Shown here piece after piece: positions 46,795 to 64,000 of a stretch of DNA of 64,000 bases; positions within the stretch are counted from its first letter, which is position 1; every line of letters starts with the position of its first letter. This DNA comes from Veillonellaceae bacterium DNF00626 (GTDB lineage Bacteria > Bacillota > Negativicutes > Veillonellales > Dialisteraceae). The notes under the pieces were generated by a model. The model worked only from the letters and a program-made list of their open reading frames with translations, searched no databases and was not told the origin of the DNA. The DNA lies in assembly GCA_001553355.1 (NCBI GenBank), contig KQ960828.1, forward strand, positions 5,668-69,667, given 5' to 3'. A program made the position numbers and the translations under genes.

Positions 46795-46806
46795 AATGTT
46801 GTTAAA

Positions 46807-46918
46807 GTTCTTCAGGGCAGGGTGTAATTCCCGACCGGTGGTAAATTGTAAGCCCACGAGCCGTAAGGTTGATTTGGTGAAATTCCAAAGCCGACAGTAG
46901 AGTCTGGATGAAAGAAGA
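46807..46918 (+). ncRNA. FMN riboswitch (RFN element)
   Basis: The aptamer is unmistakable: AGGGCAGGGTGTAATTCCC, GACCGGTGGTAA, AAGCCCACGAGCC, GATTTGGTGAAATTCCAAA, GCCGACAGTAGAGTCTGGATG and a closing P1 (TCTTC with GAAGA). It senses FMN and turns off the downstream riboflavin operon. The expression platform follows at 46919-46968. Confidence 0.97.
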
Positions 46919-46944
46919 CAACAATTTTTATGTGTTGTAAATTT

Positions 46945-51275: not shown

Positions 51276-51281
51276 GTAATC

Positions 51282-51421
51282 ACATGGAGGAAATGCCATG
51301 TCTATGAATAATTTCATAGGGTCGAATTGATGATTATTTCCCTGATTATCAATTTGGTTGCAGGTAGTTCATACTCCTCAATGAATATCTGCACAAAAGG
51401 AGCGGTGATGCCGCTTTTTTT
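51282..51421 (+). ncRNA. Structured leader or small RNA upstream of folP
   Basis: Between a promoter and an intrinsic terminator lie three perfect or near-perfect hairpins: CTATG/CATAG (51302-51319), AATTGAT/ATCAATT (51325-51354), and a 13-bp stem with one bulged G at 51359-51393 whose loop is ACTCCTCA. The terminator (AGCGG/CCGCT plus T7) ends at 51421. Near the 5' end, GGAGG (51286-51290) precedes a possible 10-codon ORF at 51298-51330 (MSMNNFIGSN). It may be an attenuator for folP, or a free RNA with an anti-Shine-Dalgarno loop. I could not match it to a known riboswitch class. Confidence 0.55.
51401..51421 (+). terminator. Terminator within the folP leader
   Basis: AGCGG and CCGCT pair around TGATG and run directly into T7. 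It lies 93 nt before the folP start, so some conditional read-through or a second promoter must feed folP. Confidence 0.8.
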
Positions 51422-58742: not shown

Positions 58743-58771
58743 TTGCCAAGTATGCTTTTTACGTGTATAAT
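58743..58771 (+). promoter_or_regulatory. Promoter of the candidate RNA upstream of hup
   Basis: TTGCCA (58743-58748), 17-nt spacer, TATAAT (58766-58771). The predicted start is near 58778. Confidence 0.7.
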
Positions 58772-58777
58772 TCAAAG

Positions 58778-58905
58778 GAAAGTTAGTTCTGTCGGTGTTC
58801 ACGGTCCTATTGATTGTGAATAAGCCCTAAAAGATTCCCGTCTTTATCTTGAAAAAGATAAAGACGGGAAACGATGGGGAAGAAAATGCCGAAGAATTTT
58901 TGTTT
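58778..58905 (+). ncRNA. Candidate structured RNA, 6S-like in layout
   Basis: The 5' end TTCT-g-TCGGTGTT (58787-58799) pairs with AATGCCGAAGAA (58885-58896) in 12 bp with one bulge, and the 3' strand runs into TTTTTGTTT, as a terminator would. Inside is a perfect 16-bp hairpin (58835-58870) closed by a GAAA tetraloop, separated from the closing stem by a large bubble containing TGTTCAC and AAGCCCTAAAAG. The order (closing stem, bubble, apical stem) and the TGTTC/AAGCC-TAAAA words recall 6S RNA, but at ~128 nt it is short for that family. Discrete RNA likely, identity uncertain. Confidence 0.5.
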
Positions 58906-61876: not shown

Positions 61877-61885
61877 TGCTAAAAT
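61877..61885 (+). promoter_or_regulatory. Extended -10 upstream of the McrB-like gene
   Basis: TGC-TAAAAT forms an extended -10; no clear -35. The transcript would start near 61892, at the foot of the first of five hairpins. Confidence 0.5.
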
Positions 61886-61893
61886 ATAAATAT

Positions 61894-61997
61894 CATGAGA
61901 GAGATCTCATGGAGTATTTAGCGGAAGGAAATTCCGTTTGGGAAAATATTTTTCCCGTGAATCGTATGATTCATTTAATGTTTAAGCACAATTGTGC
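61894..61997 (+). repeat. Five consecutive inverted repeats in the McrB-like gene leader
   Basis: In ~104 nt: (1) CATGAGA-GAGA-TCTCATG, 61894-61911; (2) CGGAA-GGAAA-TTCCG, 61922-61936; (3) GGGAAAA-TAT-TTTTCCC, 61940-61956; (4) TGAATC-GTAT-GATTCA, 61958-61973; (5) palindrome GCACAATTGTGC, 61986-61997. All arms are perfect and differ from each other. The group sits between the -10 and the Shine-Dalgarno of the ATPase gene. As RNA it would be a string of stem-loops; repeat 5 could instead be a protein operator. Confidence 0.75.
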
Positions 61998-62025
61998 AGA
62001 TATTTTAACAGAAAAGAGGTAATAT

Positions 62026-64000
62026 ATGTCGTATTTTAATACGTCAGGAAATTGGAGCGATAATTCTCTTTCGTCTCTTCGCTCGTCTGATGGAAAGGTA
62101 CTTGGACGGGTGCGGATGGAGGTCAAGGGATCTACACCGCAAGCAGGGATGAAGGATTATCGTTTTTTTGTCGATCCGGTGTCTTCACTTCCACCATATT
62201 TTTCAGAAAGTTTAAAGTATGGATTTACCGGGTTCATGAGTCGTATAGGGCTTGGTTTTAATGCTTTTGATAATGATGAAGAAGCATTACGTTATTTACA
62301 AAATGAATGGGGAGATTTTTTTGTTACATTCACGCCGGCTATGAGAAATAATAAGTTTTTTGTTTTGGATGATTTGCAAAAAGAAAGTCCGGTGTCTTAT
62401 CCGGAACAAAATGCAGCTTATCTTCCTTTGCCTGCTTTCGGGCAAGTGGGTGCGCCGGTATTTGGTGGTGATATCAATAAGTTTTGTCGTCATATTCTTA
62501 CAGGGAAACCGATCCCCGGTTTGTCAAAGAAGTATTGGAATAGCATGTTTACGCCTCATGCAGTAATTGCATATACGGATAATTTTGATGGTCGTTTAGG
62601 GGATGCAATATTATTTGCACCTTTGGAGGGCAATGCTTTTGATAAAGAAGTAATAAGCGAAGGAGGAGCCTATTTTTCAACAGAAAATAGCGGCCGTATC
62701 GGATATAAAGTGCTTCATTTTTCTGATGATTCCTTAGAGAGTCATGTTGTTCGTTGCCGTCATTCTCCGCTGTGGTTTGTATCTGAGGATAGTTTAGGAG
62801 ATTTGATTTCTGATATTCAGGAATTACCAAATGATGGAGATGTTTTGAGTCTTTATGGCATTAAGTTTGATGAATCAGTTGTGATAGATAATATAGGTCA
62901 TACGGAATCTGATGAAGACAAGGAAAATCTCGAAGGAGTATCTGATGTCTTGGATGATACGCCGGTATTTGAATCATTTGATAATGCAGAAAATATTTTT
63001 CTGGATCGATTGTCTTTGTTGGCAAAAGCAAAGGGGCTTTTATATCATGAAAGGGATTTGTTGAATTTCCATATTTCTGTAAAATCTGCGCGGCTTACTA
63101 TTTTGGCAGGTTTATCGGGGATGGGGAAATCACAGTTAGTTCGTCTGTATGGCGAAGCATTGGGGCTTCCGCCTGAACGAGTGCTTATGGTGCCGGTTCG
63201 TCCTTCCTGGATGGATGACAGTGATATTTTAGGATATGCTGATACGACGCAAATGGTTTATCGTGCCGCTGACACGGGGATTTCAGAGCTCCTTTTGGAT
63301 GCCGAAAAGCATCAAGATAAACTTTACATGATTTGTTTTGATGAAATGAATTTAGCACGGGCAGAGCATTATTTTGCTCAGTTTATTTCTGTCTTGGAAA
63401 AGGAAGGGACGCCACGAATACGCCTGTATAATCCTACCTTGCAAGGGCGTCTTTATAATGGACAAGTTTATCCGGCGGAAATTTCCATAGGGAAAAATGT
63501 GATTTTTGTCGGTACAGTAAATGTTGATGAATCAACATATCATTTTTCTGATAAAATTTTAGATCGTGCTAATGTACTCACTCTTCATCGGGAACGTTTT
63601 TCAGAGTGGAGATGCGGAGAAATTGATAAAGTGCCGGAGATAGAAGAAATATCAGCCTCTGTTTTCGATACTTTCCGTGTATATGGTAATTTAGAGTTGA
63701 CTGATAGAGAACTGGCGTTTTTGGATGATTTGAATCGGGCATTTGAGGAAAGTCATATTCAATGTGGTATCGGTTTCCGCGTAGCAAGGCAGATTGATGC
63801 TTATTTGAAAAATATACCCACAGATTACGATTTTGATCGCGAAGAGGGACTTGATTGTCAGATGGTACAGCGTATACTTACAAAGCTTAGGGGTTCTTCT
63901 CAGCAGTTGCATGCACTTATTCATGTATCAGATCAGGGAGAGGCTGAAGGGAGTTTGTTGCAGGTCTTTGACCGGTATAAGGACTTGTCGGATTTTATAG
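62026..64000 (+). CDS. McrB-like AAA+ ATPase/GTPase (3' end outside the window)
   Basis: The frame is open from the ATG at 62026 (after AAAAGAGG) to the window edge, 658 codons. The N-terminal ~340 residues are an unrecognised, acidic domain. The AAA+ module follows: Walker A GLSGMGKS at residue 362, Walker B MICFDEMNLARAEHYFAQFI near residue 435 and the sensor segment IFVGTVNVDESTYHFSDKIL. The GTVNVDE form in place of MNTxDR is known from McrB relatives that pair with DUF2357/McrC-like nucleases. A restriction-type anti-phage role is inferred; the partner should lie downstream of the window. Confidence 0.85.
   Translation, partial: MSYFNTSGNWSDNSLSSLRSSDGKVLGRVRMEVKGSTPQAGMKDYRFFVDPVSSLPPYFSESLKYGFTGFMSRIGLGFNAFDNDEEALRYLQNEWGDFFVTFTPAMRNNKFFVLDDLQKESPVSYPEQNAAYLPLPAFGQVGAPVFGGDINKFCRHILTGKPIPGLSKKYWNSMFTPHAVIAYTDNFDGRLGDAILFAPLEGNAFDKEVISEGGAYFSTENSGRIGYKVLHFSDDSLESHVVRCRHSPLWFVSEDSLGDLISDIQELPNDGDVLSLYGIKFDESVVIDNIGHTESDEDKENLEGVSDVLDDTPVFESFDNAENIFLDRLSLLAKAKGLLYHERDLLNFHISVKSARLTILAGLSGMGKSQLVRLYGEALGLPPERVLMVPVRPSWMDDSDILGYADTTQMVYRAADTGISELLLDAEKHQDKLYMICFDEMNLARAEHYFAQFISVLEKEGTPRIRLYNPTLQGRLYNGQVYPAEISIGKNVIFVGTVNVDESTYHFSDKILDRANVLTLHRERFSEWRCGEIDKVPEIEEISASVFDTFRVYGNLELTDRELAFLDDLNRAFEESHIQCGIGFRVARQIDAYLKNIPTDYDFDREEGLDCQMVQRILTKLRGSSQQLHALIHVSDQGEAEGSLLQVFDRYKDLSDFI

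Follow-up and report, generated by a model that had tools for sequence, protein, structure and literature searches.

A chain of hairpins lies between an extended -10 promoter element and the start codon of an McrBC-like operon in most members of the Dialisteraceae, despite the lack of DNA similarity between these leaders across species. We favour the explanation that the chain is a fast-evolving structured 5' untranslated leader, which would act in cis on the operon mRNA by protecting it from 5' decay, and we give this proposal about an even chance of being correct. An architecture that persists through sequence turnover makes a tractable example of selection that acts on the shape of an RNA and not on its sequence, and alignment-based RNA family libraries are expected to miss leaders of this kind.

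Layout of the leader

The window, by which we mean the whole stretch of DNA that was analysed, spans 64,000 nt of contig KQ960828.1 (assembly GCA_001553355.1) from Veillonellaceae bacterium DNF00626, a member of the Dialisteraceae, and the leader is located on its + strand (Table 1). A first-pass annotation had described five different perfect hairpins with short loops, GAGA among them, downstream of an extended -10 element. The hairpins proved to be real and correctly placed: four have perfect cores of 5-7 bp, are near-adjacent within 61894-61973 and carry the loops listed in Table 1, whereas the fifth element is a true palindrome that as RNA is a weak fifth hairpin, with a stem of only 4 bp around an AAUU loop. 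Hairpin 2 comprises seven pairs once a G-U and an A-U pair are added to its core, as does hairpin 4 when one outer G-U pair is counted.

Table 1. Features of the leader, the gene that follows it and the palindromes found in two related leaders. Positions are those of the window unless a locus or contig is named.
Feature	Position	Strand	Details
Extended -10, TGC-TAAAAT	61877..61885	+	predicted promoter, from sequence; hexamer at 61880-61885
Hairpin 1, CATGAGA-GAGA-TCTCATG	61894..61911	+	7 bp, loop GAGA; at or adjoining the predicted mRNA 5' end
Hairpin 2, core CGGAA-GGAAA-TTCCG	61920..61938 (core 61922-61936)	+	5 bp, loop GGAAA
Hairpin 3, GGGAAAA-TAT-TTTTCCC	61940..61956	+	7 bp, loop TAT
Hairpin 4, (G)TGAATC-GTAT-GATTCA(T)	61957..61974 (core 61958-61973)	+	6 bp, loop GTAT
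Palindrome GCACAATTGTGC	61986..61997	+	perfect, 12 nt; followed by AGATATTTTAA
A-rich ribosome binding region AGAAAAGAGG	62006..62025	+	mostly unpaired
McrB-like AAA+ gene, NxD type	62026..64000; L020:1693-3729	+	678 aa; stop past the window end
parS-like palindrome TGTTTCACGTGAAACA, L018 (Allisonella)	G001:C39:4750-4765		
parS-like palindrome TGTTTCACGTGAAACA, L007	G002:C1:1168913-1168928		

The extended -10 element is present ahead of the hairpins as first described, and TGnTAAAAT occurs at the same position in four other Dialister leaders. No good -35 element was found upstream of it, and a consensus promoter scan made no call for this promoter. If we assume from the sequence that this -10 element is used, transcription of the operon would be expected to start at approximately 61891-61893.

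In the computed fold, the mean unpaired probability is 0.69 for the ribosome binding region (62006-62025) versus 0.32 for the leader upstream of it. Folding also gave a long closing helix (TAAAATAT/ATATTTTA), but we set it aside: part of the -10 element lies in its 5' arm, which should not be transcribed. The view that neither an intrinsic terminator nor a known riboswitch accounts for the stems was upheld. No terminator-like site with a stem and T-run is present on the + strand of the leader, which speaks against a transcription attenuator; hairpin 3 cannot serve as a terminator because no T-run follows it. Likewise, an Rfam search with E values up to 10 matched the leader to no relevant family, riboswitch or other cis-regulatory element.

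Structure beyond chance expectation

The leader is far more structured than its composition predicts. The 141-nt segment at 61880-62020 folds with an energy of -41.2 kcal/mol, versus -22.2 +/- 3.2 kcal/mol for dinucleotide shuffles (z -5.9), and none of 200 shuffles folded as well as the sense strand. When the 115-nt region was dinucleotide-shuffled 5000 times, at least four non-overlapping perfect hairpins appeared in just 6 of the shuffles. Within the 64-kb window, the leader is the sole place with at least four perfect hairpins in 110 nt, and across 1.14 Mb of this genome the count is reached elsewhere by two tRNA-Ser genes and otherwise by weak AT-rich matches. When the best four of these AT-rich matches were checked, three proved to be within long open frames and the last to fold no better than expected by chance. 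The only non-coding sites elsewhere in the 1.14 Mb that score equally high are tRNA genes. Strong structure is also seen elsewhere in the 250-kb contig, for example in tRNAs, the folP RNA and long single stems, some of them with T-runs.

A scan of 56 extended -10-like sites in the window's genome ranks hairpin 1 first in stability among the +1 hairpins, and the corresponding first hairpin of G007 ranks sixth of 35 such sites. The exact sequence of hairpin 1 occurs a single time in the genome, and a DNA similarity search with the leader against its own genome and the genus revealed neither a further copy nor a cross-species match.

Related leaders and their conserved features

Stems recur in the leaders of this gene, as was seen when the relatives' leaders were folded from the extended -10 element to the start codon with pair span limited to 45. 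Eight of the nine leaders with a recognisable -10 element give shuffle z-scores from -2.2 to -6.3 (G000 -6.3; G003 -5.1; G004 -3.7; G009 -3.6; G005 -3.5; G010 -3.0; G007 -2.5; G008 -2.2), and the ninth (G006, -1.5) is barely above chance. The remaining two leaders score -3.7 (Allisonella, G001) and -0.6 (G002), the latter at chance level. Simple counting of hairpins is non-discriminating for G007, whose genome is rich in chance hairpins. When 76 homologues were tested, strong fold scores were concentrated in the Dialisteraceae; operons from Bacilli and Lachnospiraceae mostly have no such leader, and the array is therefore no required part of the system. The leaders of genus g2 carry a perfect parS-like palindrome (Table 1) in place of the Dialister array. 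Genomes of the family have between zero and five parS-like sites, which are often clustered.

What is retained among these leaders is mostly position and pairing. The first hairpin starts 5, 7, 8, 9 or 10 nt past TAAAAT in all five Dialister leaders compared, and its sequences are unrelated; in three leaders of genus g3 it is farther from the -10 element. In this genus the stems are conserved as the loops gain or lose bases, including by frame-breaking indels, and in one helix a G-U and a G-C pair have traded positions with the pairing intact. The sole element that also retains its sequence is a start-proximal hairpin, UACGAAA/UUUCGUA, common to G003, G005, G006 and G007. Among these four sequences, the changes preserve pairing: one pair shifts from A-U to G-C, the loop-closing pair is either G-U or C-G, and one U-A pair becomes U-G. 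In the two genomes that carry the TACGAAA hairpin exactly, it is found at this locus only. In the window, GCACAATTGTGC and AGATATTTTAA are a possible counterpart of the relatives' hairpin and the ATTTTAA that accompanies it, with uncertain homology. Given the few sequences compared, we regard these conserved features as support and not as proof.

The downstream operon

The 678-aa product of the first gene gives weak but consistent matches to the AAA_5 and McrB profiles, and a full-length structure search recovers AAA+/McrB-like folds. The NxDE signature is present in 40 of 40 aligned homologues, which places the gene in the NxD branch of McrB-like GTPases, where NxD replaces NxxD and is usually followed by E or D (PMC11090510). 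In the protein model, residues 16-280 form a beta-rich N-terminal domain, which a low-confidence linker (284-316) joins to the AAA+ region. The N-terminal domain (window 62026-62865) has no Pfam match yet is modelled confidently (pLDDT 89), and the best matches in a fold search are OB/SSB-like and weak (E at least 0.1).

The gene 3' of the McrB-like gene encodes an McrC-like partner with DUF2357 and PD-(D/E)xK domains (PF09823 and PF04411, both above cut-off), and the two adjoining genes form an McrBC-type pair. A same-strand partner is present in 79 of 80 related loci. An OLD/GajA-like ATPase-TOPRIM gene (L020:5737-7356) lies directly after the pair, downstream of the window, and no homologue of it was found in the other 80 loci.

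Relatives of the ATPase come from Dialister, Allisonella and Veillonellaceae bins, followed by Bacilli, Lachnospiraceae and others. Searches with the ATPase revealed the pair in every one of the 12 Dialisteraceae genomes, whereas just 1 of 50 genomes from the rest of the order has it; the pair is therefore no sporadic defence island in this family. The earlier description of the gene as a toxic defence ATPase is unsupported, given this family-wide occurrence; a defence role would be plausible from the protein family.

Possible functions of the leader

Under the proposal that we favour, transcription would start just after the -10 hexamer, so that the mRNA would begin with hairpin 1. Three more hairpins and the weak fifth would occupy the leader up to approximately 30 nt upstream of the ATG, with the ribosome binding site mostly single-stranded and translation initiation left free. 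Such a chain would offer no entry point to nucleases that depend on the 5' end or are specific for single strands, nor to Rho, and would in this way give the operon a steady expression level. Protection from 5'-end-dependent decay fits the anatomy of the leader, in which a hairpin at the presumed 5' end is followed by little unpaired RNA as far as about -30 and then by an open, purine-rich ribosome site. The ribosome site is more open than the rest of the leader in eight of the nine leaders; its mean unpaired probability is 0.58-0.75 in seven of the nine and 0.33-0.35 in G005 and G006, where it is partly paired. Since stabilisation needs a single 5' hairpin and no chain, the array may have a more specific task. 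Hairpins along the entire leader, and not at its end alone, could also serve to exclude Rho or internal cleavage.

Perfect palindromes fold on either strand, as is evident from the antisense z-score of -6.1 for the window leader, and might be operators or other protein-binding DNA sites instead of RNA stems. The first-pass annotation had entertained a mix of mRNA stems and one DNA operator, namely the last palindrome. However, the palindromes all differ and hence are no repeats of one site, and the first hairpin keeps only its position relative to the -10 element. Furthermore, in all nine leaders the sense strand has the more stable fold of the two, and sense folds are richer in G-U pairs (50 versus 11 across the nine); for this reason mRNA stems are likelier than DNA operators. 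Part of this energy bias must be due to base composition, given that the sense z-score is superior in just six of the nine. The pair-keeping changes described above also favour the stem-loop half of the mixed proposal, and the operator half is unsupported because four Dialister relatives have, as the probable counterpart of the last palindrome, what resembles an RNA hairpin in its G-U pair and compensatory change. We therefore consider DNA sites quite unlikely. That the array is a functionless product of an AT-rich intergenic stretch is highly unlikely: G006 and G002 are indeed near chance, but the shuffle test, the genome background and the recurrence in relatives all argue against it.

A regulatory RNA would be another alternative, in which a trans-acting protein, a small RNA or the McrBC-like complex binds the chain and alters translation or stability of the operon mRNA. 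The recurrence of the array in most relatives, the retained sequence of the start-proximal hairpin, the weak OB/SSB-like matches of the N-terminal domain and the membership of the protein in the NxD branch, for part of which RNA is the predicted target (PMC11090510), are all consistent with this possibility. However, most hairpins share neither sequence nor loop between species, Bacilli and Lachnospiraceae operons have a related N-terminal domain mostly without the array, and in most species of the nine leaders the ribosome site was not seen to be masked by structure. We consider such regulation possible but less likely than the protective role, and the more specific suggestion that the array is an RNA target of a phage or host factor found no support. 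A special version, in which the NxD McrBC-like complex, whose N-terminal domain may be OB-like, recognises its own leader RNA to form an autoregulated pair with a fast-evolving RNA partner in the Dialisteraceae, strikes us as most improbable. It is also very unlikely that the array serves as a leader peptide or attenuation system, in which translation of the short ORF MEYLAEGNSVWENIFPVNRMIHLMFKHNCADILTEKR opens the hairpins or is coupled to the ATPase. This ORF (37 codons, 61909-62022) does cross the array and ends 3 nt before the ATPase ATG, and G005 and G007 have a common ORF end (LIRKxFRTxF-stop). Yet the other relatives have no common peptide, the g3 indels break the frame and spare the stems, and the changes between G005 and G007 near that hairpin fall in the loop or flank and alter amino acids with the stem left intact; attenuation would also call for the terminator that the + strand does not have.

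Relation to known systems

Stem-loops at the 5' terminus are established stabilisers of mRNA, as in the ompA and papA leaders of Escherichia coli and the aprE leader of Bacillus subtilis. Such elements were reportedly described by Emory in 1992, by Bouvet in 1992 and by Hambraeus in 2002, papers that figure in the reference list of PMC3997798. Our protective proposal resembles these leaders in having a stem-loop at the extreme 5' end, which here is predicted, and an open ribosome site downstream. However, the ompA, papA and aprE leaders have one or two stems, whereas the Dialister leader strings together four or more whose sequences turn over between species.

The folP RNA (RF02978) is likewise a cis leader of several consecutive hairpins, but it is a sequence-conserved Rfam family followed by a terminator-like stem and T-run, and the Dialister leader has neither feature. 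A folP RNA is located in the window at 51281-51382, and an FMN riboswitch at 46804-46923.

The operon resembles the NxD-motif McrBC systems, including CoCoNuTs, in its NxD AAA+ protein with a following E and its DUF2357 McrC partner (PMC11090510). CoCoNuTs are defined by long coiled-coil fusions to McrB and by associations with RNA-binding proteins or ribonucleases (PMC11090510), none of which was seen here, where the structure model covered the McrB-like protein. The 2024 census knew of no characterised NxD-motif McrB GTPase, and the words 'untranslated', 'ncRNA' and 'hairpin' are absent from the main text of that work (PMC11090510). A targeted literature search returned nothing on a leader RNA of NxD McrBC-like systems. 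Our findings point to an uncatalogued structured leader on an uncharacterised McrBC branch, and suggest that a genuine control element of the mRNA has so far escaped study.

A separate part of the window also merits mention. The stretch at 58761-58900, just past a TATAAT-like -10 element and upstream of an HU gene, is non-coding and strongly structured. It has no Rfam match at the gathering threshold, shows the most extreme fold residual in 250 kb and is possibly an unrecognised small RNA.
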